IMG/VR virus record: IMGVR_UViG_3300032116_000404
Span: 1 to 44,478 of that record
DNA: 44,478 bases
Source of the DNA: a virus
Strand: one strand, 5' to 3'
Positions 711 through 44,396 of this stretch are shown piece after piece. Both the position numbers and the translations under genes were made by a program. The notes below the pieces were generated by a model. That model searched no databases. It was given only the letters and a program-made list of their open reading frames with translations, and had not been told where the DNA came from. Every line of letters begins with the position of its first letter. Position 1 is the stretch's first letter.

Positions 711-929
711 ATGATCGACGCCGCTGCCTCTGCCGAAATGACCGCCCGCAAGCGTGCCATGGATGAAGCGTACGCCACCACGCTGGAGATTGACGCGGCA
801 TGGCGCCGCGACTTCGCTGCCAAGCTCGCGGCGGCTGGCCATGCCGGCAGCTATGACTACGAATACAGCATCAAGCATGCCGAGAGCGCCGAAGCCGAAG
901 CCGCCGCAATCCGTGCTTCTCTCGCGTGA
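711..929 (+). CDS. Small early protein, 72 aa, unknown
   Basis: This is the first gene of the plus-strand early block. ATG 711 was chosen because CGGAG (699-703) sits seven bases before it; an in-frame ATG at 663 lacks a ribosome binding site. The product begins MIDAAASAEMTARKR and is rich in Ala, Glu and Arg. It is predicted largely helical, with no cysteines, signal peptide or membrane segment. I do not recognise a family. Its TGA stop is the first triplet of copy 1 of the recurring intercistronic element. Confidence 0.7.
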   Translation: MIDAAASAEMTARKRAMDEAYATTLEIDAAWRRDFAAKLAAAGHAGSYDYEYSIKHAESAEAEAAAIRASLA

Positions 930-995
930 CGTTCATACACTGCCGCGTGATGCGCGGCAGACATGAGCGCCACAGCTCACAACGGAGAACGGATC
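927..995 (+). promoter_or_regulatory. Structured intercistronic element, copy 1
   Basis: The element begins at the stop codon of the upstream gene. Stem 1 is CTGCCGCG (940-947) with CGCGGCAG (953-960). Stem 2 is GAGC (965-968) with GCTC (975-978) around GCCACA. The ribosome binding site GGAG (984-987) and ATG 996 follow. This is the reference member of a six-copy family in the early region. Confidence 0.8.
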
Positions 996-1187
996 ATGTG
1001 TTTTCAGCCTCGCAATCCCGCCGGCACGCGTTACGCCACGATGACGCGTGCACAGCTCGCGGCGGAGTATGAAGGACGGGTGGGTTACGATCCGTTCGCG
1101 GATGACGCACGCACCACGGAAGACGACGTGAGGGAGCTGCTGCGTCAGCTTGACGAAATGGCCGAAGAACTGGCGGAGGAAATGTGA
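996..1187 (+). CDS. Small acidic early protein, 63 aa, unknown
   Basis: ATG 996 is placed eight bases after GGAG (984-987). An in-frame ATG at 963 lies inside the structured element and has no ribosome binding site, so I reject it. The product begins MCFQPRNPAGTRYATMTRAQ and ends in a strongly acidic helix rich in Glu, Asp and Leu (residues about 40-63). No family is recognised. The tail of the gene carries GGAGGA, which serves the micro-gene starting two bases after its stop. Confidence 0.7.
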   Translation: MCFQPRNPAGTRYATMTRAQLAAEYEGRVGYDPFADDARTTEDDVRELLRQLDEMAEELAEEM

Positions 1188-1189
1188 CC

Positions 1190-1261
1190 ATGGGCGACCT
1201 GCCGGACTGGATCGCCTTCCCCTTGGTATGCGCCGCTATCTGGCTCATCCTTTCAATCTGA
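1190..1261 (+). CDS. 23-aa single-pass membrane micro-protein
   Basis: ATG 1190 follows GGAGGA (1175-1180) by nine bases and lies two bases after the previous stop, so it is probably translated by coupling. The peptide is a short acidic head (MGDLPDW) followed by about 16 hydrophobic residues (IAFPLVCAAIWLILSI) ending at the stop. That is the shape of a minimal inner-membrane anchor. Function is unknown. It could be a membrane-active early factor, or chance, but the strong ribosome binding site argues for translation. Confidence 0.5.
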   Translation: MGDLPDWIAFPLVCAAIWLILSI

Positions 1262-1277
1262 CAACGGAGAACACATC

Positions 1278-1679
1278 ATGCCCAAGCCTCTTTACCTCGA
1301 CATTGCCGATCGCGTGGCACAGCTCATCAATATGAACAAATCAACGGCCGTGGAATGGGGCGCCATTGGCGATAAATCGGCTGAGCTGGAAAAGCTCATC
1401 CGCGACCACATGCCGGGTGGGAGCGGTTTCGACAACGGAACCACGCTGGACGATGACGCAACGCGCGCCGACAAACTCGTCTTTCGCACCGCGTTTCACC
1501 ACATGGACGAGAGCGGCGGCTATGATGGTTGGACGGAACACACCGTCATCATCACGCCAGCTTTCGGCGGCTTCGATATTCGCGTGACCGGCCGCAACCG
1601 AAACGACATCAAGGCGTACATTGCCGACACGTTCCAGCATGCCTTGTCGGCGCCGGCAGGATGGGCAACGGCCGGCTAG
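1278..1679 (+). CDS. Hypothetical early protein, 133 aa
   Basis: ATG 1278 follows ACGGAG at 1264-1269. The product begins MPKPLYLDIADRVAQLIN. It has a helical N-terminal half (an AVEWGAIGDKSAELEKLI helix near residues 24-42) and a more beta-like C-terminal half with HTVIITPAFGGFDIRV near residues 88-103. No catalytic motif or membrane segment is seen and I do not recognise the family. It ends with TAG, followed directly by copy 2 of the intercistronic element. Confidence 0.75.
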   Translation: MPKPLYLDIADRVAQLINMNKSTAVEWGAIGDKSAELEKLIRDHMPGGSGFDNGTTLDDDATRADKLVFRTAFHHMDESGGYDGWTEHTVIITPAFGGFDIRVTGRNRNDIKAYIADTFQHALSAPAGWATAG

Positions 1680-1749
1680 TGACGTTCTGCATGGGGCCGG
1701 CATTGTCGGCCCCTAACAGAGCGCCACAGCTCGCAACGGAGAACGACCA
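1680..1749 (+). promoter_or_regulatory. Structured intercistronic element, copy 2 (GGGG subtype)
   Basis: It starts TGACGTTC like the other copies but carries a different stem: GGGGCCG (1693-1699) with CGGCCCC (1707-1713) around a 7-base loop. Stem 2 is GAGC (1719-1722) with GCTC (1729-1732). GGAG (1738-1741) and ATG 1750 follow. Confidence 0.8.
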
Positions 1750-2178
1750 ATGACCAGCTACACCGAAGCCGATTATCAGCGCGAACGCGCAATCTGCGAC
1801 AAGGCGCAAGCCTATTGGAAGGCGCACGCGTCCTACGACCGAAGCGGCGCATCCAGCATGACGGCAGAGCAAGCCGCGCATCCCGACTACGCCGCGTGCG
1901 ACAACGCCATGCGCGGCCGTGTGGAGGCCTGGGAGCTGCAGCGCGACAAGCCGGCGGTGTTCTTCGCTTACCTGGACGCCAAAGGCGAGCACGTCACCAC
2001 ATGGCTGGGTGACGTTATCGGTCGCGTGACGCGCCTTCGCCGATCCACGCACCGCACATGGAATGGCGCGAGGCACAGCATGTACCATGTGCACGTGACG
2101 GCTTTCGGCAAGCGCTACCACGGCAAGGGAAGCGGCCCCGGAATGTGCATCACGTTGCGCGCATTCAAGAGCAAGTGA
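1750..2178 (+). CDS. Hypothetical early protein, 142 aa
   Basis: It begins MTSYTEADYQRERAI with a helical, charged first half. A beta-rich second half has PAVFFAYLDAKGEHVTTW (about residues 68-85) and, near the C-terminus, MYHVHVTAFGKRYHGKGSG. The C-terminal part is basic and glycine-rich, which would suit nucleic acid binding, but this is inference. No named family is recognised. It lies between copies 2 and 3 of the structured element, and its TGA is the first triplet of copy 3. Confidence 0.75.
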   Translation: MTSYTEADYQRERAICDKAQAYWKAHASYDRSGASSMTAEQAAHPDYAACDNAMRGRVEAWELQRDKPAVFFAYLDAKGEHVTTWLGDVIGRVTRLRRSTHRTWNGARHSMYHVHVTAFGKRYHGKGSGPGMCITLRAFKSK

Positions 2179-2248
2179 CATTCACAAACTGGCGTGCTAC
2201 ATGTACGCCAGACGTGAGCGCCACAGCTCGAACACAGGAGAGAAGACA
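2176..2248 (+). promoter_or_regulatory. Structured intercistronic element, copy 3 (diverged stem)
   Basis: It starts TGACATTCA. Stem 1 is CTGGCGT (2189-2195) with ACGCCAG (2205-2211), extended by a G-U pair. Compared with copy 1, both arms have changed and pairing is kept. Stem 2 is GAGC (2216-2219) with GCTC (2226-2229). The strong ribosome binding site ACAGGAGAG and ATG 2249 follow. Confidence 0.8.
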
Positions 2249-2518
2249 ATGCTTGATTTCGTGTTGCACCTGTCGCGTGACGTGCCGGGGATGCGCAAGG
2301 CACGCGTCAGCTCGGAGCAGCCTGGAATGCACGTGCGGCCGGTTTCGACGGAAACGCGCAAGGCGTTGCCGTTCCAGTATCGCGCGGCTTTCGACCGCGC
2401 TAACGATACGTGGTGGCAGAACAAGCACGACACGTCAGACAACCCGCCGCTGTATCTCGAATTGCGTTCGGCGCGCGGCAAATACCTCAACACTGTGCAC
2501 GCCATTCCGGCGCGCTAA
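2249..2518 (+). CDS. Small hypothetical early protein, 89 aa
   Basis: ATG 2249 follows ACAGGAGAGAAGACA. An in-frame ATG at 2201 lies in the loop of the structured element and is unlikely to be used. The product begins MLDFVLHLSRDVPGMRKARV and includes a Trp-rich stretch (NDTWWQNKHD, about residues 52-61). It looks like a small soluble alpha/beta protein. No family is recognised. The next gene follows after 16 bases with its own GGAGAGAAGAC leader and no structured element. Confidence 0.7.
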   Translation: MLDFVLHLSRDVPGMRKARVSSEQPGMHVRPVSTETRKALPFQYRAAFDRANDTWWQNKHDTSDNPPLYLELRSARGKYLNTVHAIPAR

Positions 2519-2534
2519 CAACGGAGAGAAGACA

Positions 2535-2948
2535 ATGTGGAACTACAGCAAGAAAGAACATCAAGTCATTGCGCATGCATGGGCGCGCCTGGCCGAAGCG
2601 GCGGATACCCGCATGGGCGCCGGGTGGGAGCTGGCGTTGTACGTCAAGATGGAACGTGGATCGGGCGGCCCCAAAATCAGTTCGTTGTCGGCGCGCTTCC
2701 TGATCGCTCGTTCCGTGTTCGAGGGGATGCGAGAGCCGGACGCGCCGATTTCGTCCATTGGCGGTTTCCGTCATTCCATCATCCTGGCCCGCGTGTTCGG
2801 CGCCGACAATCGCGACCGCGGCACCCTCAACCCCCGCTGGACGGAATTTCTCGCGGCAATGCCGGCCGCTATCGAGGCGCATGACGCGTGCACCAAACGC
2901 GAGCACGACGCCAACATGGCCGAACTGCGAGCGATGAAGACCGCGTGA
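2535..2948 (+). CDS. Hypothetical early protein, 137 aa
   Basis: ATG 2535 follows CGGAGAGAAGACA. The same frame stays open upstream to 2058 but that part overlaps two genes and has no start signal. The product begins MWNYSKKEHQVIAHAWARLA, predicted helical, and later has GFRHSIILARVFGADNRDRG around residues 76-95. The C-terminus is a charged helix. No catalytic motif is obvious. Its TGA opens copy 4 of the element. Confidence 0.7.
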   Translation: MWNYSKKEHQVIAHAWARLAEAADTRMGAGWELALYVKMERGSGGPKISSLSARFLIARSVFEGMREPDAPISSIGGFRHSIILARVFGADNRDRGTLNPRWTEFLAAMPAAIEAHDACTKREHDANMAELRAMKTA

Positions 2949-3016
2949 CGTTCATACACTGCCGCGCACTGCGCGGCAGACATGAGCGCCACAGCTCGAC
3001 CACAGGAGAGAAGACA
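2946..3016 (+). promoter_or_regulatory. Structured intercistronic element, copy 4
   Basis: It starts TGACGTTCATACA. Stem 1 is CTGCCGCG (2959-2966) with CGCGGCAG (2972-2979), with one further C-G pair closing a 3-base loop. Stem 2 is GAGC (2984-2987) with GCTC (2994-2997). ACAGGAGAG and ATG 3017 follow. The loop differs from copies 1 and 6 while the stem is identical. Confidence 0.8.
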
Positions 3017-3445
3017 ATGCCCGAATTCATCATCAACGACGACAAGCCGTTGCGCGGCCTGTCTGACTTCGAACGCGGGTACATCGACGCCATGTTCTTT
3101 ACGAACGGCGACACGGGGGACGACGAAAGGCCATGGCTGTTGAATGAGCTTGGCACGCGCCGGCTCACGCGCAAGGCGCTGGTGCGCATCAAGGCCGATT
3201 GCGGCGCCTTCCTGGCCGCCTTCGTGTCGCCTGGACGCACTGTTGCTGAAGTCATCGCGGCGCAAGAGAACTACGACGAAGAACAAGCCGGCCGTGATTT
3301 CTGGTACACGCGGCAAGGCCATGGCGTCGGGTTCTGGTGCCGGGATGAACTGGCCGAAGCTGTCGGCGACGCTCTGTCGAGAGCCGCAAAGGCGCAAGGC
3401 GAAGCCTATGTGGAAACCTGGCGGGGCTGGATTTATTATCGGTGA
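3017..3445 (+). CDS. Hypothetical early protein, 142 aa
   Basis: ATG 3017 follows ACAGGAGAGAAGACA. The product begins MPEFIINDDKPLRGLSDFER. A region with FWYTRQGHGVGFWCRDEL (about residues 94-111) looks like a compact aromatic core. The C-terminus is helical and ends GWIYYR. It is acidic overall, with no signal or membrane segment. Similar short acidic proteins are common in phage early regions but I cannot assign a function. Its TGA opens copy 5 of the element. Confidence 0.75.
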   Translation: MPEFIINDDKPLRGLSDFERGYIDAMFFTNGDTGDDERPWLLNELGTRRLTRKALVRIKADCGAFLAAFVSPGRTVAEVIAAQENYDEEQAGRDFWYTRQGHGVGFWCRDELAEAVGDALSRAAKAQGEAYVETWRGWIYYR

Positions 3446-3514
3446 CGTTCTGCATGGGGCTGGCGTTGTCAGCCCCTAACAGAGCGCCCCTGCTCTAACA
3501 CAGGAGAGAAGACA
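3443..3514 (+). promoter_or_regulatory. Structured intercistronic element, copy 5 (GGGG subtype)
   Basis: Stem 1 is GGGGCTG (3456-3462) with CAGCCCC (3470-3476). Relative to copy 2 a C-G pair has become T-A through matched changes in both arms. Stem 2 is AGAGC (3481-3485) with GCTCT (3492-3496), whose loop changes from GCCACA to GCCCCT. ACAGGAGAG and ATG 3515 follow. Confidence 0.8.
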
Positions 3515-4261
3515 ATGCCCGCGATACGCCACCACACCACGCAGCAAGTGTTGCACGTGACGCATGGAAAAACTTTGTTCGGCGCCAACCTGCAAGGCGC
3601 CGACCTGCGAGGCGCCGACCTGCGAGACGCCGACCTGCAAGGCGCTGACCTGCAAGGCGCTGACCTGCAAGGCGCCGACCTGCAAAGCGCTAATCTGTAC
3701 GGCACCCACCTGCGCGACGCTAATTTGTACGGCGTCAACTTGCGAGAAGCCCACCTGCGCGACGCCCGTTTGCCAGGCGCCAACCTGCAAGGCGCCAACC
3801 TGCAAGGCACCAACCTGCAAGGCGCTAATCTGTACGGCGCCAACCTGCGGTACGCCGGCCTGCGGTTCGCCGACCTGCAAGACGCCAACCTGCAAGACGC
3901 CAACCTGCAAGACGCCAACCTGCGAGACGCCCACCTGCGACGCGCCGACCTGCGACGCGCCAACCTGCGAGACGCCCACCTGCAAGGCGCCAACCTGCGA
4001 GACGCCGACCTGCAAGGCGCCGACCTGTACGGCCACCACGTTGTGCGGGAAGTCGCTGTGTTGCGGCGTGCGGACGGCTACGAATTCCGCGCGTTCGAAA
4101 CGCTCGGCGGCCTGTTCATCCGCGCCGGTTGCCGCGCCAAGATGATCGAAGAATTCAGGGCGCACGTGGCGAAGTATTACCCCAAAACCGCCAAGGCCGC
4201 CGAAACCTTGGCGATCCTCGATTTCTGCGAGCAGCAAGCCGCGCGGGAGCCCTGGGCCTGA
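3515..4261 (+). CDS. Pentapeptide-repeat protein with C-terminal cap domain
   Basis: After a short leader (MPAIRHHTTQQVLHVTHG) the protein is an almost unbroken series of five-residue units of the A(D/N)LxG type from about residue 20 to 172. Such repeats form a right-handed quadrilateral beta-helix. A non-repeat C-terminal domain follows (about 173-248), with FRAFETLGGLFIRAGCR and a helical end. Repeat proteins of this class can mimic DNA and bind gyrase (Qnr, MfpA), but most phage members are uncharacterised, so gyrase binding is only a hypothesis. The central Leu/Phe position is mostly Leu. The fold is secure, the function is not. Confidence 0.85.
   Translation: MPAIRHHTTQQVLHVTHGKTLFGANLQGADLRGADLRDADLQGADLQGADLQGADLQSANLYGTHLRDANLYGVNLREAHLRDARLPGANLQGANLQGTNLQGANLYGANLRYAGLRFADLQDANLQDANLQDANLRDAHLRRADLRRANLRDAHLQGANLRDADLQGADLYGHHVVREVAVLRRADGYEFRAFETLGGLFIRAGCRAKMIEEFRAHVAKYYPKTAKAAETLAILDFCEQQAAREPWA
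3583..4030 (+). repeat. 15-bp coding minisatellite of the pentapeptide gene
   Basis: The DNA is a near-tandem series of 15-bp units of the form GACCTGCAAGGCGCC, about 30 in number. Variation is concentrated at the first and third codons. Because the unit is a multiple of three and lacks stops in most frames, other frames and the opposite strand stay open too. That produces false Cys/Thr/Pro-rich and Val/Gly/Gln-rich open frames. Confidence 0.85.
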
Positions 4262-4328
4262 CGTTCATACACTGCCGCGTGATGCGCGGCAGACATGAGC
4301 GCCACAGCTCGGACACAGGAGAGAAGAC
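4259..4328 (+). promoter_or_regulatory. Structured intercistronic element, copy 6
   Basis: Stem 1 is CTGCCGCG (4272-4279) with CGCGGCAG (4285-4292), the same hairpin including its loop as copy 1 more than 3 kb upstream. Stem 2 is GAGC (4297-4300) with GCTC (4307-4310). ACAGGAGAG and ATG 4329 follow. It starts with the TGA of the pentapeptide gene. Confidence 0.8.
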
Positions 4329-5084
4329 ATGAAGCGCCCCGAAATCATATTCGTGGGCATGGAAACGAGCGGCGCATTACGTCGCCGCTTCCAGGCCAAA
4401 GGATACGAGACGTACTCTGTGGACCTCCTGCCTTCCGAAGATGGCGGGGAGGAAACAACGTACACCCAAGACGGCATGCTTACGCTCGGCAAGCACTGGG
4501 TTGGCGACGTGTTCGGAACGCTCGAAAACATGTACGCATGCGATCTTTGGCCGGATGCCGCGGTGTTCCACCCGGATTGCACCTATCTCACCAACTCGGC
4601 TGAATGGGCGTACAAAGACCCCGATTTTGTGCGTTACCCCGAAGTTGGCTACCACCAGCGCGTCAAGCCCGGCACATTGACGGGCGCGGCCAGGCGAGCC
4701 GCCCGAGCTGCGGCCATGGATCAGTTCCGCCGCATCCTCGCCTTGCCGATCCGCGTCAAGGTTATCGAGAACCCGCGGGGCGCCTTGTCCCGCATCATGA
4801 AACCGACGCAGACCGTGCAGCCCTACGATTTCGGCGACGACGCCAGCAAGGCCACGTGCCTGTGGCTGCTCGGCAAGTACAACAACCCGTTGCCGCCGCT
4901 CCCCGTCAACCCGGCTAAGCGTGTGCCTGGCCGCATCGTCAATGGCGTTGAACGGTGGGCTAATCAGACTGACAGCGGGCAGAACCGGCTTTCACCGGGC
5001 GACGACCGCTGGAAAGACCGCGCCCGCACTTATCCCGGCATTGCGGACGCGCTGGCCGACTACATCGCCGAACAACTCAGCTAA
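4329..5084 (+). CDS. C5 DNA methyltransferase-like protein, phage type
   Basis: The N-terminus IIFVGMETSGALRRRF followed by GYETYSVDLLP matches the SAM-binding motif I layout of phage cytosine methyltransferase-like proteins. HPDCTYLTNS (about residues 81-90) corresponds to the catalytic PC loop, and KVIENPRGALSR (about 143-154) to the ENV/ENP motif. Later WANQTDSGQNRLSP is typical of this short family. The residue before the catalytic Cys is Asp instead of the usual Pro, so activity is uncertain. At 251 aa it has a reduced target-recognition part. It may methylate phage DNA against restriction, or be a non-catalytic relative. Confidence 0.65.
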   Translation: MKRPEIIFVGMETSGALRRRFQAKGYETYSVDLLPSEDGGEETTYTQDGMLTLGKHWVGDVFGTLENMYACDLWPDAAVFHPDCTYLTNSAEWAYKDPDFVRYPEVGYHQRVKPGTLTGAARRAARAAAMDQFRRILALPIRVKVIENPRGALSRIMKPTQTVQPYDFGDDASKATCLWLLGKYNNPLPPLPVNPAKRVPGRIVNGVERWANQTDSGQNRLSPGDDRWKDRARTYPGIADALADYIAEQLS

Positions 5085-5096
5085 CGGAGAGAAGAC

Positions 5097-5426
5097 ATGT
5101 ATTTTAAGATGATCGGAGAGCCGGCCAACAAGAGCTTGGCGAGCGCCGCGGAATACGGCCACGAGCTGAACCACGCTATCCGCCACATCGACACGCTCGT
5201 GGCTATGGAAGTCATGGGCGGCGGCCCCAACACTATCGCAATCTTCCCCTGTCTGAACGGCGGCAAGCAGATCGAAGCCGTACAGGCTACGGTCGATTTT
5301 CTGCAGCGCGCCGCCGAAGCGGCAAAGGACATGCACGCTTTCTTAACGGAGGCGTGCGAACATGCGCAGGCGTTCACAAAGCGCACCCCGACCGTCACCC
5401 CCATGCCCTTCAAGAAAGGCGGCTAG
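5097..5426 (+). CDS. Hypothetical protein, 109 aa
   Basis: ATG 5097 follows CGGAGAGAAGAC with no structured element, 12 bases after the preceding stop. The product begins MYFKMIGEPANKSLASAAEY. It is mostly helical, with alternating charged and small residues, and a short hydrophobic TIAIFPCLNGG segment near the middle. It ends in a basic KKGG tail. No family is recognised. The next gene begins two bases after its stop, so the two are probably co-translated. Confidence 0.7.
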   Translation: MYFKMIGEPANKSLASAAEYGHELNHAIRHIDTLVAMEVMGGGPNTIAIFPCLNGGKQIEAVQATVDFLQRAAEAAKDMHAFLTEACEHAQAFTKRTPTVTPMPFKKGG

Positions 5427-5755: not shown

Positions 5756-6211
5756 ATGTCCCTCAAGGTTGGTCCGGTTCTCGCCCCCGGCTCGTTCACG
5801 GTCCCGGCCGGCTCGTCCGGTCGTTCGTCGCACACGGCGTTTCACGCTGCCCTGATGTCGCTCGCCGCCCCGGCGCCCGGCCAGGAGCACGGCGGGGCCT
5901 TCCCCGTCGAAGTGGACATGTCGGACTGCGGCATGCTCGGCGAGGCCCGCGCGACCGAATTCAGCGCCCGCGCTCGCAAGGTGTCGAATTCCGTCAGCAA
6001 TGCCATCCGGTCCTTCGGCCGCACCACGCCCGGCCCGAAGTTCACGGCGCGCACGATCCGCGGCCAGAACAACCCGCTCGGCGCCATCGACGGTTGCCTT
6101 CTCGTGATCCGGCTCGCCGACAACGCCCCGGCTGCGCCCGCCGCTGGCCAGACCGGCGCCGGCCAGGCCCCCGCCGCGCCGCCGAAGCCCCCGAAGCCGC
6201 CGAAGAAGTGA
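5756..6211 (+). CDS. Hypothetical protein with Pro/Lys-rich tail, 151 aa
   Basis: ATG 5756 follows ACGGAG (5741-5746); an in-frame ATG at 5702 has no ribosome binding site. The product begins MSLKVGPVLAPGSFTVPAGS and has a folded-looking body to about residue 122. A disordered tail of Ala, Pro and Gly follows, ending in KPPKPPKK. The body has a beta-type stretch AIDGCLLVIRLADN. No family is recognised. Its position and basic tail would suit a DNA-associated protein, which is inference. Confidence 0.7.
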   Translation: MSLKVGPVLAPGSFTVPAGSSGRSSHTAFHAALMSLAAPAPGQEHGGAFPVEVDMSDCGMLGEARATEFSARARKVSNSVSNAIRSFGRTTPGPKFTARTIRGQNNPLGAIDGCLLVIRLADNAPAAPAAGQTGAGQAPAAPPKPPKPPKK

Positions 6212-6228
6212 TCTGCGGCTTTCGCACC

Positions 6229-6257
6229 CTGCGCCCCGCCTGTATGGTGGGGCGCAG
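6229..6257 (+). promoter_or_regulatory. 12-bp intercistronic hairpin
   Basis: CTGCGCCCCGCC (6229-6240) pairs with GGTGGGGCGCAG (6246-6257) around loop TGTAT, with one G-U pair. No T-run follows. It sits 18 bases after a stop codon and about 20 bases before ACAGGAGAG of the next gene. This is the same placement as the early structured elements but an unrelated stem. Confidence 0.7.
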
Positions 6258-6291
6258 TCGCGAGAGCCCCACCCTTCACAGGAGAGAAGTC

Positions 6292-7488
6292 ATGAACCTC
6301 AAGGACTACCTGCCGACATTCACAGGCGGCGCGGCGGCCGTCATCGCCGCGGTGCAGACTGGCGCCACGTACGCCGGGCTGCGCAGCCCGTCGTTCGACC
6401 AGCTCGCCGACCTCGTGGCGTCCACGGCCGAGAACCGCGCCGTCACGTCGATGCAGGCGTGGCTGCAGCCGCAGCTTGAAGCGCACGTGGCGGAATTCAC
6501 AGCGCTGTACGGCGGGCGCCCTGGCGGCCCGAGCGACGCCGCCGACCAGTACGACAGTCTGCTCGACGACTGGCTGCACAACTGGCTCGAACAGCCGTGG
6601 CTCAAGGAATGGCTTGGCCCGAGCTGGATCGGTCAGAACAGTGTGGGCGCGCAGGCGCACGACCCCGCCGAAGTCATCAAGCTCGCCCGCAACATGTCGG
6701 CGCAGATCGTGCGCGAAATCGTGACGCGAGAAGTCAATGTGGCGATCCACAACGGCCAGGCCACGCACGCGCAGATGCCGGAATACAAGCTGCTCGCTCT
6801 CGGCATCCGCCGCGACGACATCATGCCGCTCGTCATGGCCGCCGCAGCGCCGGCTGGCGTGACGCATCCCACCGAAGCGGCGCCGGTTGCCGCACAGCCC
6901 GCCGTGGACGTGGCGGCGCTGAAATCGGTTGTCGATCCTCTCGTGCTGCACCTGGGGCAGCACAGCGGCGAGCCGCCGGATGCGGTGGCCGCCATCGTGC
7001 AACAGCTCGCGTCAGACAAGCCGCAGCTCGTGCAGGTTATCATCGAACGTTACGGCGTCGATGCCGGGTACGTCCCTTACGTCAAGCAGTACTTCGCTGC
7101 GATCCCGACAGCGTGGACGGACATTTTCAACATGCTGACGGTGCCCGCCGCCACGGAGGCCGCAAAGCCGAAGCGCCGCAAGGGCAAGGGAGGCACCAAG
7201 GCCAACGAGGATGCCGCCACGGGCGCCGCGGCGTCGAGCGCGCCGGCCGCCACCCCGACCGGGGAAGTGCCGCCGTCCGTCTTCGCCGCGCTCGGCGACT
7301 GTGGGGCTTCGGATCGTGACCTGGCCGACCTTCTCGGCATGTCGCGCCCGACGATCAACAACGCCAAGAACGGCAAGGGCACGCCGCCCAAGCTCTCGGC
7401 GGAACAGCGCAAGCAGCTCGCGGACCTCATCATCCGCAAGTCGCAGGTGCTCCACGAGGCGTACACTGCGCTGTCGGCGGTGCAGTGA
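6292..7488 (+). CDS. 398-aa protein with C-terminal helix-turn-helix
   Basis: ATG 6292 follows CACAGGAGAGAAGT. The N-terminal 280 residues are helical and unrecognised, starting MNLKDYLPTFTGGAAAVIAA, with a Trp-rich segment DDWLHNWLEQPWLKEWLG near 90-107. A basic, disordered linker (KPKRRKGKGG) follows. The last 60 residues contain DRDLADLLGMSRPTINNAKN, a classical helix-turn-helix of the Xre/Cro type. I infer a DNA-binding regulator or replication accessory factor. It is a candidate to bind the terminal iterons, but nothing here proves that. Its stop overlaps the next start (TGATG). Confidence 0.7.
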   Translation: MNLKDYLPTFTGGAAAVIAAVQTGATYAGLRSPSFDQLADLVASTAENRAVTSMQAWLQPQLEAHVAEFTALYGGRPGGPSDAADQYDSLLDDWLHNWLEQPWLKEWLGPSWIGQNSVGAQAHDPAEVIKLARNMSAQIVREIVTREVNVAIHNGQATHAQMPEYKLLALGIRRDDIMPLVMAAAAPAGVTHPTEAAPVAAQPAVDVAALKSVVDPLVLHLGQHSGEPPDAVAAIVQQLASDKPQLVQVIIERYGVDAGYVPYVKQYFAAIPTAWTDIFNMLTVPAATEAAKPKRRKGKGGTKANEDAATGAAASSAPAATPTGEVPPSVFAALGDCGASDRDLADLLGMSRPTINNAKNGKGTPPKLSAEQRKQLADLIIRKSQVLHEAYTALSAVQ

Positions 7489-11204: not shown

Positions 11205-12586
11205 TGCCTCTCGATGTATTCCCATACCAAGACGTTGGCGCGCGCTATCTCATACAGAGGGCGCGCGCCGGCCTTCATGACGAAATGGGTGTGGGCAAGA
11301 CGGCCACAGCCATCCGCGGTCTGGACATGCTCGGGTACAAGCGCGGCATCATCGTTGTACCGGCCTTTCTGCGCCGCAACTGGATCAAGGAATTCGAGAA
11401 GTTCGCGCATGTCCCGCGGTCCATCGTACGCGGCGAGACGGTGCACGATTTCGCCGCCTGGCAGCGCGGCCGGTTCGACACGTTGGTGACGAGCTACGAG
11501 CAAGCCGTCAACTGGAAACCCCACATCGACCAGCAAGCCGAATTCCTCGACTTCGTGCTGTTCGACGAAGCGCACAAGCTCAAGAACCCCGACATTCCCC
11601 GTACGAAGGCGCTGCTTGGGCCGGAAGCCGATGGCGTAGGCGGCTTGCCGATGTGGGCACGCGTGGCCTGGCACATCACAGGCACGCCGATGATTAACGA
11701 TCCGCTGGACATTTTCACGTTCCTGAAAATGTGCGGCGCCATGCCTCTGCGCAAGACGGAATTCATCAAGCGCTATTTCCACGTACGCCGCACCACGTAC
11801 GGCTCTCGGCAGATGCCGCGCCCCGAAATGGTGGAAGAACTGACGCGGCTCATCAACGCCAACAGCATCCGGCGTACGCTACGGGAAACCGGCGTCGAGC
11901 TACCGCCGATCTTCCTGTCTTCCATGTTCATTGACGGCGATGCGAGCAAGGTCAATCAGTTCCTCGCCGAGCATCCCGGTCTTGACCGCAGCATCATTGC
12001 GACGTTGCAGGAGCAAGGCAATCTGTCGTTCTTGGACAGCCAATACGTGTCCACACTACGACGGCTTATCGGCGAAGCAAAGGTGCCTTCGTACTGCGAA
12101 ATGGTGCGCGAGGAATTGGAAGGCGGGCTGGACAAGATTGCGATTTACGGCATTCACCAGCACGCGCTGAAAATGATACAGGACTACTTCGCCCGCAAGC
12201 GTATCAAGATGGTGCTCGTCAACGGCACTACGACGAAGGCGATGGACGAGGAGGCCGAACGCGCATTCAACAACGACCCCGAGTGCAGAGGCTTCATCGC
12301 CAACATCGAGAAGGCCGGCGCGGGCGTCAACTTGCAGGTGTCTGCAGCTCTCGACATTTTCGAAAGCGACTGGTCGCCAGGCAAGAATGCGCAGGCAGTG
12401 AAGCGCGTACACCGCATCGGCCAGCGCCGAAATGTGCGCGGGCGCTTTATTACCCTTGCCGGATCATTCGACGAAATGGTTAATAAGATCGTCGCCGAGA
12501 AAACGGCCGCGATTGCCCAAATCGAAGGGGAGGCCATGGCCGCCGCGCCCTCCGATGTGCTTGACCAAATCAGGCACCTGCTCTAA
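11204..12586 (+). CDS. SNF2-type DEAD/H helicase or translocase
   Basis: Motif I is DEMGVGKTATAIRG (K32), motif II is FDEAHKLKN (about residues 120-128), motif III is ITGTPMIND. The C-terminal RecA-like lobe ends with QAVKRVHRIGQRRNVRG, the SNF2 motif VI. These are all in order, so the ATPase is probably active. At 460 aa it is a minimal phage SNF2 protein, a class often found beside DUF2800 nuclease, DUF2815 and PolA genes. It should move along duplex DNA during replication, recombination or repair. Start overlaps the upstream stop. Confidence 0.85.
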   Translation: MPLDVFPYQDVGARYLIQRARAGLHDEMGVGKTATAIRGLDMLGYKRGIIVVPAFLRRNWIKEFEKFAHVPRSIVRGETVHDFAAWQRGRFDTLVTSYEQAVNWKPHIDQQAEFLDFVLFDEAHKLKNPDIPRTKALLGPEADGVGGLPMWARVAWHITGTPMINDPLDIFTFLKMCGAMPLRKTEFIKRYFHVRRTTYGSRQMPRPEMVEELTRLINANSIRRTLRETGVELPPIFLSSMFIDGDASKVNQFLAEHPGLDRSIIATLQEQGNLSFLDSQYVSTLRRLIGEAKVPSYCEMVREELEGGLDKIAIYGIHQHALKMIQDYFARKRIKMVLVNGTTTKAMDEEAERAFNNDPECRGFIANIEKAGAGVNLQVSAALDIFESDWSPGKNAQAVKRVHRIGQRRNVRGRFITLAGSFDEMVNKIVAEKTAAIAQIEGEAMAAAPSDVLDQIRHLL

Positions 12587-12626
12587 CATGTTAGTGCGTA
12601 GTTCGAGAACGCCACAGGAGAACCAA

Positions 12627-13256
12627 ATGGCGAAGTACCAGATCGTGCATGAATTCAACACGCTCGCCGAGCTGCAGGCGTTCGCCGCCAGCATGCCCGG
12701 CGGCGCCCCGGCCGGGGCGGGCGGTGCGCTCCCCCCGCCCAATCCCGGCATGCCCGCCCCTCCGCCGGGCCTGCCCCCGCTGCCGGCCGCTGGTGCCCCT
12801 GGGGGCTTCGCGGGTGGAGCCCCTGCCCCGATGCCTGCGCCGGGCATGCCCTTGCCCCCGATGGGCGCCCCGAGTGCCGGGTTCCCTTCTAGCCCACCGG
12901 GCATGCCCGCCCCGCCCCCGATGGCGCCGCCCATGGCCCCGCCGCCGGCTCCCGGCATGGCGCCGCAGGTGCCCCTGGGTTTTCACAACGGGGGCGGAGC
13001 GGTCGGCCCCCGCGGGGACGTTCCGGGGGCTCCCCCGGCCGCTGGAATGGCAGGGGCGTCAGCCCCGGCTACCGGTGGGGGTGGTGATCTGGCGTCGCTG
13101 CAACAGGCTCTCATGGCCGCCCTGCAGAACCGCGTCCACACCCAGGACACGGCGCAGCGCATCCTGCAGAAGTACGGCGCGCAGCAGGTCAACCAGCTCA
13201 ACCCGCAGTACTACCCGCACGTCATCGCCGAGTTGCAGCAGCCGCCGGCCGCCTGA
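12627..13256 (+). CDS. Pro/Gly-rich low-complexity protein, 209 aa
   Basis: ATG 12627 follows CACAGGAG (12613-12620). A short N-terminal part (MAKYQIVHEFNTLAELQAFA) is followed by about 110 residues of Pro, Gly, Ala and Met repeats with many PGMP and PPP units. A folded C-terminal part follows, with TQDTAQRILQKYGAQQVNQL and NPQYYPHVIAELQ. The last segment resembles small terminal modules of phage recombination or SSB-type proteins. The long disordered region may promote condensation or act as a tether in the replisome; that is inference. Confidence 0.65.
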   Translation: MAKYQIVHEFNTLAELQAFAASMPGGAPAGAGGALPPPNPGMPAPPPGLPPLPAAGAPGGFAGGAPAPMPAPGMPLPPMGAPSAGFPSSPPGMPAPPPMAPPMAPPPAPGMAPQVPLGFHNGGGAVGPRGDVPGAPPAAGMAGASAPATGGGGDLASLQQALMAALQNRVHTQDTAQRILQKYGAQQVNQLNPQYYPHVIAELQQPPAA

Positions 13257-13268
13257 CGCCTTTACGAC

Positions 13269-13290
13269 CTGCCCCGCTTCGGTGGGGCAG
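13269..13290 (+). promoter_or_regulatory. 9-bp hairpin with TTCG tetraloop
   Basis: CTGCCCCGC (13269-13277) pairs with GTGGGGCAG (13282-13290) around TTCG, a C(UUCG)G-type tetraloop that is exceptionally stable in RNA. It is 12 bases after a stop and 22 bases before the next ATG. No T-run follows, so it may stabilise or process mRNA more than end it. Confidence 0.7.
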
Positions 13291-13311
13291 TGGTAAGGAC
13301 GAGGCCGCCCC

Positions 13312-14562
13312 ATGACAGAACGACAGCACGCCGCTTACGGCGCGTCCAATGCACATCGTTGGCTCGTGTGCCATGCCAGCATCAAGGAAGCGGCAAAGGC
13401 ACCGCCGCGCCCGTCGTCGCGTGCTGCTCGTGAAGGCACCGCGGCGCACGCTCTGCTCGAACACTGCTTGAAGACCGGCGTGTGGGATGCGCGGCCGTAC
13501 ATCGGCCAGGCCATCGACCCCGAGTTTCCCATCGACGACATGATGGCCCGCGGCGTCAACACGTGCCTTGATCTTGTCTGGCGCATCCTCGCCGAGAACC
13601 CCGGCGCCGAGCTGCACGTCGAGAACCAATTCGAAATCCCGTCGCTCGCCGCGCCCGGCCAGGTGTACGGGCATTGCGACATTTGCATCTTCGTGCCGTC
13701 GAACGGGTGGCTCATCGTCATCGACTTCAAGTACGGCTACGACGTAGTGGACGTGAAGGGCAATCCGCAGTGTTTGCACTACGGCACTGGCGCGTTCTTC
13801 TCGGGGCGGTTCCAGAACGTCCAGGCGTTGACCACGTGGATTTGCCAGCCCCGCGCCTACGGCACAGGCGTGACGGAATACCACACTTACAGCGTGCAGG
13901 AAGTGTACGATTTCTACGCCCGCGTCGAGCAAGCGGTGGCTGACAGCAAAGCCGAGAACCCGACGTACGCCCCGTCGCGCGAGCGCTGCAAGTACTGCCC
14001 GGCCAACACGACATGCGCCGCTGCGCGCTCGGCGGCTCTCGTTACGTTTGGCTTCAACGATGTGAAGCAGGTAGGCGAAGCCGTCATTCCCGCGCCGCAG
14101 GACGTGGACATACCCACCATGGCGCACGTCCTGGCGCATGCCGACATGCTGCGTGGGTGGCTGGACGCCTACGAGACGCACGCCAAAGAGCTGCTTTTGC
14201 AAGGCGTCTTCATCCCCGGCCAGAAGCTCGTCGAGGCGAAGCAGAACCGGGCGTGGCACGGCGAGGAAGAACAGGTGGCCGCGGCGCTCATGCGGCTGAT
14301 CGGGCTGACGTGGGATGAAGTGATGCCCCGCGGGCTCATCCCTGTGACGGAAGCCGAGAAGCTGGCCGTTGACGCCTACAAGGCGCGCGCTCCCCGCGGG
14401 CAGAAGATGGAAGCGGCAAAGGCAGCGCGCGAAGCGCTGGCCTTCCTGACGCATAAGCCAAAAGCTCCGACGTACACAATGGCGTCGGAGAGTGACCCGC
14501 GGCCGGCGGTTAACCCGGTCAAACAAATGTTCGCTGGCGTGGTGCCGTCGAGCAGTTCGTAG
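13312..14562 (+). CDS. RecB/Cas4-like PD-(D/E)XK nuclease (DUF2800 type)
   Basis: The N-terminus has SNAHRWLVCHASIKEA and RAAREGTAAHALLEHC, typical of DUF2800/Cas4-like proteins. The nuclease core is HCDICIFVPSNGWLIVIDFK (about residues 121-140), giving the Asp and the D-x-K pair of the PD-(D/E)XK fold, followed by QCLHYGTGAF. CKYCPANTTCAA (about 226-237), with an upstream Cys, could bind an iron-sulfur cluster as in Cas4. The 416-aa length fits the family. With the SSB and helicase next door it probably processes DNA ends for recombination. Confidence 0.8.
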   Translation: MTERQHAAYGASNAHRWLVCHASIKEAAKAPPRPSSRAAREGTAAHALLEHCLKTGVWDARPYIGQAIDPEFPIDDMMARGVNTCLDLVWRILAENPGAELHVENQFEIPSLAAPGQVYGHCDICIFVPSNGWLIVIDFKYGYDVVDVKGNPQCLHYGTGAFFSGRFQNVQALTTWICQPRAYGTGVTEYHTYSVQEVYDFYARVEQAVADSKAENPTYAPSRERCKYCPANTTCAAARSAALVTFGFNDVKQVGEAVIPAPQDVDIPTMAHVLAHADMLRGWLDAYETHAKELLLQGVFIPGQKLVEAKQNRAWHGEEEQVAAALMRLIGLTWDEVMPRGLIPVTEAEKLAVDAYKARAPRGQKMEAAKAAREALAFLTHKPKAPTYTMASESDPRPAVNPVKQMFAGVVPSSSS

Positions 14563-36110: not shown

Positions 36111-36575
36111 TCACTCGTGCAGGTACGCCAGATACCCTTCCAGCGTGCCGCCGACCGGGAACGTGCCGCCGGTCACGGTGGCGAAGAAATCCCACCCCGT
36201 GCGCGAGAACATGTCGTAGGGCGTGCCGGTGCTCATCTGCAGCGCGTTGGTGGCGCTGGACACGTCCAGGGCCGAGCCGAAGGCGTCATCGTCTTCGGCC
36301 TCGGCGGAGCCGTCCGCCTTGGCGTAGGCACGGTGCCCGAACTTGAGCACGCGGGACGAGCCCCAGGCCGAAGTCCAGATCTTCGACTGATCGCGCAGGA
36401 TGCGCAGCCGGCCGAACGGCAGGCGGCCGAGTTCGAACGTCGAGCCGTCCGCGGCGGCGACAGTGGCGGCGGCCACCTGGAAGTAGTGCAGCCGAAACTT
36501 GGGGTGGCGGTCAATCGGGAGAAGATTTGTCTTCGCCACGATTGCGTCCACCTGAATGCTGTTCACGCTGGCCAT
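36111..36575 (-). CDS. Probable virion protein, 154 aa
   Basis: It begins MASVNSIQVDAIVAKTNLLP and is beta-rich, with KFRLHYFQVAAATVAAADG and FELGRLPFGRLRILRDQSK. An acidic insert (AEAEDDDAF) follows, then GWDFFATVTGGTFPVGGTL near the end. The start follows CAGGAGA. It lies between the capsid and tail tubular protein A genes and begins after a hairpin that may limit read-through from the capsid gene. A head or connector structural role is inferred from place and from composition. Confidence 0.65.
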   Translation of the reverse strand: MASVNSIQVDAIVAKTNLLPIDRHPKFRLHYFQVAAATVAAADGSTFELGRLPFGRLRILRDQSKIWTSAWGSSRVLKFGHRAYAKADGSAEAEDDDAFGSALDVSSATNALQMSTGTPYDMFSRTGWDFFATVTGGTFPVGGTLEGYLAYLHE

Positions 36576-36623
36576 GTGCCAATCTCCTGTTGATGCGTGA
36601 AGAAGGGAAGCGACGCCGCGCTA

Positions 36624-36642
36624 GGCGGCGCCGAGCGCCGCC
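36624..36642 (-). terminator. GC-rich hairpin just after the capsid stop
   Basis: GGCGGCGC (36624-36631) pairs with GCGCCGCC (36635-36642) around CGA. It begins one base after the capsid gene's TAA. No T-run follows on the minus strand, so it could be a weak terminator or a 3'-end stabiliser that keeps capsid mRNA abundant. Confidence 0.5.
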
Positions 36643-36643
36643 G

Positions 36644-37549
36644 TTACTCGACGCATTCGAGCATCAGCACGCGGCCTTCCTCGCGACGGGTGGCGCCCGC
36701 CGTGAAGGTGCCGTGGATTTGCTTGATGTTGTTCTTGTCGGCACGATTGTTGATCGTGATGACAAGCTCCTGCCAGGAGCCGTAGTGCATGCCCTCGGGC
36801 ACCCACACGGGGCAGTACCGGACGGTGCCGCCGACGTTGGTCGGGATGCCCTTGGTCACGGCATCCTGATCCTCGTACGGCACGAAGGTGAAGCCCATGA
36901 AGGCATTGACCTCGCCGTCTACGAGCGGCTTGACGGCGTTGTAGTCCGACGAGCCCACGGCGACTTCGCCGAGCAGGTCGTCGATCTGGTGCGCCGTGAC
37001 GGCGATCAGCGGGCGCGTCATGCGCAGATCGACATGGTTCAGCTTGAGCCGCTTGCGGGCGGCGCGGAGCTTGGCCACGGACATGCGCGTGCCGCCGTTG
37101 GCGATGGTGTCGGCGGCCGGGAACGACACATTGGTGTTGCCGTGCTTGCCGGCCTTGGCGACGGCGAAGAAGGCTTCCATGATAATGTCGTCCTGCTTGC
37201 GGGCGGCACCGACACGGAAAGCCTCGACGTACATGTTCGTCGGCTCGTAGATCATCTTGAGCGTGTCGAGCCGGTCCACGAGCATGGCCGTGTCGAACTC
37301 GTCGCCGTAAATCCAGCGCTGAGTGTGCTCGGGCTCCGTCACTTCCGTGTCGGAGTACTTCGTGGTCCGCTTCTGGAAGAAGACGGGACCGATGAAGTTG
37401 ACCACCTGCGCTTTCTCGCCGACGTAGGCGCCGCGGGTGACGTGCTGCATCAGCAGGCCCGGCATCTTCTGCAGCGCGTGCTGCACGTTGCCGGTGAACT
37501 GCATGACGTGGTGCTCGGGCACCTGATAGGTGGAAAGCGTCTCGGACAT
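36644..37549 (-). CDS. Major capsid protein
   Basis: The 301-aa product begins MSETLSTYQVPEHHVMQFTG. It continues with AQVVNFIGPVFFQKRTTKYS and IYGDEFDTAMLVDRLDTLK, the pattern of podovirus HK97-fold major capsid proteins. MIYEPTNMYVEAFRVGAARK and RPLIAVTAHQIDDLLGEV also fit. The protein ends EGRVLMLECVE. It follows the scaffold gene, as usual. It is preceded by a terminator-like hairpin and a 122-base gap that may hold a promoter or processing site for high expression. Confidence 0.85.
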   Translation of the reverse strand: MSETLSTYQVPEHHVMQFTGNVQHALQKMPGLLMQHVTRGAYVGEKAQVVNFIGPVFFQKRTTKYSDTEVTEPEHTQRWIYGDEFDTAMLVDRLDTLKMIYEPTNMYVEAFRVGAARKQDDIIMEAFFAVAKAGKHGNTNVSFPAADTIANGGTRMSVAKLRAARKRLKLNHVDLRMTRPLIAVTAHQIDDLLGEVAVGSSDYNAVKPLVDGEVNAFMGFTFVPYEDQDAVTKGIPTNVGGTVRYCPVWVPEGMHYGSWQELVITINNRADKNNIKQIHGTFTAGATRREEGRVLMLECVE

Positions 37550-44284: not shown

Positions 44285-44396
44285 TGACATATTGGCAGGA
44301 TGACATATTGGCAGGATGACACATTGGCAAATTAGCAAATTGGTAAATTAGCAAATTGGTAAATTAGCAAATTGGTAAATTAGCAAATTGGCACTA
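44285..44396. repeat. Seven tandem 16-bp iterons
   Basis: Units start at 44285, 44301, 44317, 44333, 44349, 44365 and 44381. Units 1-2 are TGACATATTGGCAGGA, unit 3 TGACACATTGGCAAAT, units 4-6 TAGCAAATTGGTAAAT and unit 7 TAGCAAATTGGCACTA. The invariant core is ATTGG(C/T)A. The array is AT-rich in a GC-rich genome, a feature of replication origins and repressor sites. A related copy without tandem neighbours lies at 44242-44256. Left-end relatives lie at 7-20, 177-205, 302-315 and 619-632. Confidence 0.85.

Follow-up and report, generated by a model that had tools for sequence, protein, structure and literature searches.

A family of bistable, stop-anchored RNA elements at phage gene junctions, with a candidate role in sensing translation termination

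Junction elements of an uncultured phage

The window analyzed here is the whole 44,478-nt record IMGVR_UViG_3300032116_000404, a 44.5-kb uncultured virus whose rightward arm holds small early genes, helicase, exonuclease, DNA polymerase and primase, and whose leftward arm holds tail, portal-like and terminase genes; the terminase is ~40% identical to those of epsilon15-like podoviruses. We describe a structured RNA element that recurs at gene junctions of this window and in other phages, and for which we propose a switching role. A sequence-only reading of the window had claimed that six junctions share one plan. The six junctions and the stem sequences quoted for them proved correct, but the family does not end at six copies, since two more exist (6214-6294 and 13257-13328). 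Each element is best described by three short segments predicted to compete for pairing: A at the upstream stop codon, B beyond a variable inner hairpin, and C just 5' of the ribosome-binding site (RBS) of the next gene. The eight copies of the window are as follows, with the next start codon given as ATG.

Copy 1, 927..978, + strand: A arm 927-936, with the TGA serving as stop of gene 711-929; inner hairpin 940-960; B arm 963-972 (GAGC 965-968); C (GCTC) 975-978; downstream, RBS GGAG at ~984-987 and ATG 996
Copy 2, 1680..1732, + strand: after the stop TAG 1677-1679; inner stem GGGGCCGGC/GTCGGCCCC; GAGC 1719-1722, GCTC 1729-1732; ATG 1750
Copy 3, 2176..2229, + strand: TGA is the stop of gene 1750-2178; inner stem CTGGCGTGC/GTACGCCAG; GAGC 2216-2219, GCTC 2226-2229; ATG 2249
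Copy 4, 2946..2997, + strand: TGA is the stop of gene 2535-2948; GAGC 2984-2987, GCTC 2994-2997; ATG 3017
Copy 5, 3443..3495, + strand: TGA is the stop of gene 3017-3445 (g7, phrog_1915); inner stem GGGGCTGGC/GTCAGCCCC; GAGC 3482-3485, GCTC 3492-3495; ATG 3515
Copy 6, 4259..4310, + strand: TGA is the stop of the pentapeptide-repeat gene 3515-4261; GAGC 4297-4300, GCTC 4307-4310; ATG 4329
Copy 7, 6214..6271, + strand: stop TGA at 6209-6211; outer stem TGCGGCTTTCGC/GCGAGAGCCCCA; inner stem of 12 bp; B without a C partner; ATG 6292
Copy 8 (diverged), 13257..13301, + strand: after the TGA 13254-13256 that closes the open reading frame 12432-13256; no C partner found; ATG 13312

The first six copies are tightly defined. 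A combined pattern, GACRTTC...GAGCGCCNCNGCTC, matched these six junctions only in the whole window (0 expected in shuffles), the top six plus-strand matches of a shape-only descriptor in the window were also six of the copies, and all six junctions folded below their own dinucleotide shuffles (z from -3.4 to -5.2). The expectation that the element usually starts with the stop codon itself holds for five of the six, which open with an in-frame TGA, but not for copy 2, in which a TAG directly precedes TGACGTTC. The inner stem is 9 bp long in each of them. The sequence-only reading overlooked a further helix, in which A (TGACGTTCAT, at the stop codon) pairs with the GAGC-holding arm (ATGAGCGCCA) and encloses the variable 9-bp hairpin; this outer stem ties the TGACGTTC start to the GAGC-holding arm. 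In RNA form, A is UGACGUUCAU and B is AUGAGCGCCA. The minimum-energy fold in five of the six junctions is this A:B rod and not two tandem stems, and changes in the outer stem are compensated between window copies (CAU/AUG, CUG/CAG, CAC/GUG). The GAGC/GCTC stem of the earlier description, our B:C helix, is real, but it cannot coexist with the outer stem: A:B and B:C use the same GAGC and are therefore mutually exclusive. Because copies 1 and 6 are identical across ~50 nt, the six copies taken from this window alone are not six independent observations, and the covariation claim rests mainly on other phages.

A first covariance model trained on copies 1, 3, 4 and 6 recovered copies 2 and 5 and found copy 7 (hit 6217-6294, E ~1e-7), which has an entirely different outer stem, GGCUUUCGC/GCGAGAGCC; copy 8 was found by a second model (hit 13257-13328, E 1.6e-6). 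The neighbouring junctions 1187-1278, 2518-2535 and 5084-5097 have the ACAACGGAGA-type RBS leader in common with the element junctions and lack the hairpin element. On the late strand, a similar double-stem hairpin lies between a stop and an RBS at 36573-36666 (-), adjoining a structural gene (14.9 bits with model R2).

Covariation and spread among phages

To other uncultured viral contigs the element was traced by a pattern made of the shared lower stem plus CUG/CAG. Model R2 then gave six copies in genome G021 (6.3-8.1 kb), about nine in G023, four in G022 and eight in G030, clustered and on one strand, as well as single copies in the contig L192 and probably in L209. Across ~326 kb searched with R2 at E < 5e-4, nothing appeared beyond true copies, reverse-strand echoes and one spurious match (L473). 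The carriers fall into two groups. G021, L192 and the probable carrier L209 are podovirus relatives, G021 being a distant relative of the window phage (polymerase 42%, helicase 38%). G022, G023 and G030 (~61-74 kb) form a separate group with no core genes and almost no proteins in common with the window. Similar elements thus stand between genes of related phages, as the sequence-only reading had supposed, and in an unrelated phage group besides. The L192 element follows a homologue of g7, the gene that precedes window copy 5, and in G022, G023 and G030 an element precedes an orthologous gene of 306-310 aa, with inner-stem sequences that differ.

Covariation was judged against shuffled columns, slid arms and arms swapped between copies, and on copies that had played no part in training. 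The pair-cell count used 39 model hits, two of which were not genuine and were excluded from subsequent tests (n=37). In the A:B and inner helices, standard pairs filled 95.9% of the pair cells of the 39 hits, against 66.5% in shuffled columns and 31-44% with slid arms, and both-sided changes were present at 17 of 18 pairs. Fitting the alignments (A6 and A7) to the structure favours these counts, a bias from which the B:C and swap controls are free. For the 19 copies outside training, 95% of A:B cells and 97% of inner-stem cells were paired, compared with 72% and 64% when arms were swapped among copies. The cleanest test is B:C, because no model contained it. A B:C match of at least 5 nt was present in 25 of 37 copies versus 4.0 (maximum 9) in shuffles. 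Where B is GAGC, C is GCUC in 15 of 19 copies and GCUUC in none of the 19; where B is GAAGC, C is GCUUC in 13 of 13 and GCUC in 0 of 13. Both classes coexist within single genomes (G021, G030), and the diverged L209 copy has GAUGC/GCAUC. Furthermore, one A:B position keeps a U.G wobble in 33 of 37 copies and an A.C mismatch near the A:B base is common. B:C is perfectly paired; the wobble kept in A:B against a perfect B:C fits an A:B helix held weak enough for exchange. The plus strand scored 102.8 bits versus 24 bits for the palindromic minus strand. The earlier argument for RNA structure over a DNA operator is therefore strongly supported, by massive covariation across phages and by the retained wobble as well as by the strand scores.

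Searches elsewhere delimited the family. Among 22 cultured phages searched there was no convincing copy, R2 on 21 cultured phages and 14 contigs gave only two matches at E ~0.05, and Planktothrix phage Pra-JY27 had no element. Blastn of the early region with the element against cultured phages, a search with the RBS 17-mer, and the tail-protein relatives yielded no elements, and 20 terL relatives gave weak matches only with model R1. A scan of viral contigs for the bare 14-base GAGCGCCACAGCTC produced nothing convincing by R1 in 100 of the fetched loci, among the matches listed. The seven matches of a first gapped pattern lay inside genes and were rejected as chance. In a pattern scan of genome contigs the matches listed were coding-like, except possibly L382:3848-3894 (-) on a Planctomycetota metagenome-assembled genome contig, an unconfirmed possible copy (TGACCTTCAT...ATGAGCGCCA, 8-bp inner stem, before a GAGG RBS).

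Other phages have junction repeats of their own. The Caulobacter phage CcrSwift (L279) has several junctions that open with a TAACCTTTTGTTAAGAC-like sequence at the stop codon followed by a long GC hairpin, another stop-anchored repeat. Two phage records (L257:16630-16708 (-) and L260:13456-13536 (-)) have in common a conserved stop-to-start double-stem junction with a sequence unrelated to the present family. The repeated 68-71 nt junctions of Rhodobacter phages L274, L275 and L276 resemble the element in length only and carry promoter-like TTGACT...TAGAT with palindromes, and Erythrobacter phage XM05 (L280) repeats a junction block of CTTGACCGAATCGGTGGAG and GC hairpins followed by T runs, a terminator plus promoter punctuation. 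In the window itself, the gene 4329-5084 (PHROG 'DNA methyltransferase') matches gp47 of the sludge phage EBPR siphovirus 2 at 69% DNA identity, and CAATRTGTCA-type repeat units, inverted and possibly serving replication or packaging, lie near both ends (178-203 and 44304-44329).

A proposed termination-sensing switch and its rivals

The placement of the element suggests what might set its fold. An in-frame stop codon forms its first three bases in 19 of ~36 copies and lies at -1 to -5 nt in 13 more, in both phage groups. A Shine-Dalgarno sequence precedes the next start, which usually lies 60-80 nt downstream. Going by ribosome footprints, a ribosome terminating on the upstream stop would cover the stretch that is the A arm. 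When the first 12 nt were masked in folding, mean predicted B:C pairing rose from 0.21 to 0.78, and mean pairing of C with the Shine-Dalgarno sequence fell from 0.26 to 0.09.

We propose, with about even confidence, that these elements are a new family of cis-acting phage RNAs acting as bistable, ribosome-sensitive switches that would sense termination and couple the translation of neighbouring co-transcribed genes. In the A:B state the element would be one long rod around the inner hairpin, and in the B:C state a second hairpin would stand beside the first. A ribosome ending on the upstream stop would cover A (about the first 10-12 nt) and let B:C form, which would keep C off the purine-rich RBS so that the next gene is translated; with no terminating ribosome, A:B would form and C, freed, could pair with the RBS and make the next gene quieter. 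Such a device, present at many junctions, would amount to translational attenuation or to translational coupling by RNA unfolding, both of which are established precedents (PMC12548453). The sequence-only reading had suggested more generally that the element processes, insulates or times each early gene; the conserved alternative pairing among three segments, rooted at the stop codon, points more narrowly to a translation-dependent switch. The anatomy is well supported by sequence evidence: a family of elements exists, its A:B, inner and B:C helices are conserved, A:B and B:C exclude each other, the elements are anchored at stop codons, and they have spread between unrelated phages. What we infer is ribosome sensing, the direction of the output, and control of translation rather than RNA processing.

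Several results weigh against this proposal. On masking, mean predicted RBS accessibility rose only modestly (0.48 to 0.58), and strong pairing of C with the RBS is confined to a minority of copies; the output side is therefore weakly supported. A convincing C is absent in ~6 of 37 copies, window copies 7 and 8 included. Several neighbouring junctions of the window have a good RBS and no element, and structure just 3' of a stop codon has been reported to lower coupling (PMC12548453). The remaining point belongs to the main rival, an unlikely but substantial one, in which host RNase III cuts the rod of A:B and the inner hairpin, separating early messages and capping their 3' ends as in T7. Early junctions of T7, which we take to be RNase III sites, fit the same rod descriptor (7-10 bp, small internal loop, 9-12 bp, small loop) with values of (6,2,9,4,3), (6,3,10,5,4) and (9,2,9,4,3), and two of them have their base no more than 4 nt from the upstream stop. 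RNase III needs ~20 bp of near-continuous helix, which the rod supplies. The T7 sites are likewise intercistronic, with two stacked stems and a small internal loop. However, they have no sequence relation to the element, R2 found no match in T7, its early region included, and here it is the outer, lower stem and not the inner one that is conserved, its U.G and A.C positions being fixed. The conserved alternative partner C sets the element apart as well, and B:C covaries although cleavage by RNase III would not call for a second partner of B. The phage encodes no RNase III of its own, so the cut would require the host enzyme.

Conservation of the lower stem (UGACGUUC/GAGCGCCA) beside a free inner stem, together with its wobble and common A.C mismatch, would also suit a phage or host protein (or RNA) that binds there and represses or activates each junction, B:C being the unbound state. 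We consider this improbable: no gene is common to all of the carriers, hardly any proteins occur in both phage groups, and the lower stem itself changes class (GUUC/GAGC to GUUUC/GAAGC; GAUGC in L209). The B:C state, with two side-by-side stem-loops in ~70 nt, resembles HK022 putRNA in size and plan (PMC9378689), and the elements lie in phage non-structural operons, which raises the very improbable case of a put-like elongation device in which, with upstream translation, two adjacent stem-loops make RNA polymerase resist pausing or polarity. Compared by description, put is a phage RNA of ~70 nt in which two stem-loops are possible. It occurs once per early operon near the promoter and acts on RNA polymerase, with no A:B rod alternative described, whereas the element occurs in up to nine copies at gene ends; nor was there an Rfam match. 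Least of all do we expect an attC-like DNA recombination site, folded as single-stranded DNA and punctuating exchangeable cassettes, although the element lies at the stop codon between small genes that are co-oriented and mostly unrelated, persists where neighbouring genes differ and has an inner part of variable length, once 112 nt. The cores RYYYAAC and GTTRRRY were present in 1 of 37 and 0 of 37 copies, no tyrosine recombinase (PF00589) was found in five carriers, and the wobble and the B:C helix adjoining the RBS are conserved. The earlier suggestion of a recombination seam for swapping early genes is circumstantial only: elements stay in place where most of the small genes beside them change, but in a distant phage g7 is still followed by its element, and the recombinase and attC cores are missing.

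Four further readings were rejected. There was no terminator call at the elements, and TTTT follows the inner stem in 1 of 37 copies, which disfavours an intrinsic terminator; no -35/-10 call at these junctions supports a sigma-70 promoter or operator repeat, in contrast to the TTGACT junctions of the Rhodobacter phages. Against selenocysteine or readthrough at UGAC, a ribosome that read on past the UGA would shortly run into a further stop codon in some copies (copies 1 and 3). The 13-bp SAS sequence GGGATAGGAGCCC had six matches in the window at up to 3 mismatches versus 9.8 by chance, none at the elements.

Relation to known RNAs and significance

The inner hairpin can be replaced. In one G030 copy, L488:10979-11086 (-) on contig IMGVR_UViG_3300022173_000041, a 108-nt Atu_At1 RNA (RF02496; 83 bits against a gathering score of 60) takes its position, and all other copies have a plain hairpin there. 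The A arm of this copy starts at a TAG stop, B and C pair as GGAGCGCU...GCUCC, and A, B and C are all intact; R2 missed the copy because of the insert. Masking switched its predicted fold completely, A:B from 0.98 to 0.00 and B:C from 0.00 to 1.00. A second enlarged inner domain occurs in L495:10495-10600 (+), where the inner stem carries an extra AAACC/GGTTT hairpin. Atu_At1 in G030 suggests an alphaproteobacterial host and a modular socket. We speculate, at well below even confidence, that the element is a transferable RNA 'punctuation' module common to unrelated phages, each copy of which would read the termination of the prior gene and set the next one, and that the inner socket could take sensor RNAs such as Atu_At1, so that individual gene junctions would act as AND gates combining translation with a second signal.

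As judged from Rfam 15, the family is previously uncatalogued and no Rfam family fits it. No family reached its gathering score in the window, where the best weak match was an unrelated viral frameshift element (E 0.37), and the elements of L469, L488 and L495 had no match except Atu_At1 inside the one copy. The nearest cases in the literature are SAS/ESAS of mycobacteriophages (PMC3203893), putRNA (PMC9378689) and RNA-unfolding translational coupling (PMC12548453). The SAS/ESAS of cluster K mycobacteriophages likewise occur in many copies among non-structural genes, just 5' of starts, with inverted repeats and an RBS-like part. ESAS differs in having sequence-conserved 17-bp repeat arms upstream of a fixed 13-bp SAS (PMC3203893), and R2 had no match in the right half of TM4. 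Attenuators and RNA-unfolding coupling systems (erm-type leaders; f1 VII/IX, MS2 coat/lysis, rpmI-rplT, PMC12548453) have exclusive helices set by ribosome position, as would be the case here, and likewise a last segment that can touch the RBS. In contrast to these, the event sensed here would be termination at the stop of an ordinary gene, and there are up to nine modules per genome, in a homologous family that moves between unrelated phages and has a plug-in inner domain. None of these cases describes a homologous, repeated, stop-anchored bistable element; the comparison covers open-access literature only, in which absence is not proof.

A phage has many small genes to express from one long transcript, and both their dosage and their timing must be set. 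If the proposed switch is correct, a repeated homologous bistable junction RNA would be a general and portable answer to this need; it would also open phage operon coupling to simple reporter tests and supply synthetic operons with a compact component. For annotating junctions in phage dark matter, the covariance model gives a handle.

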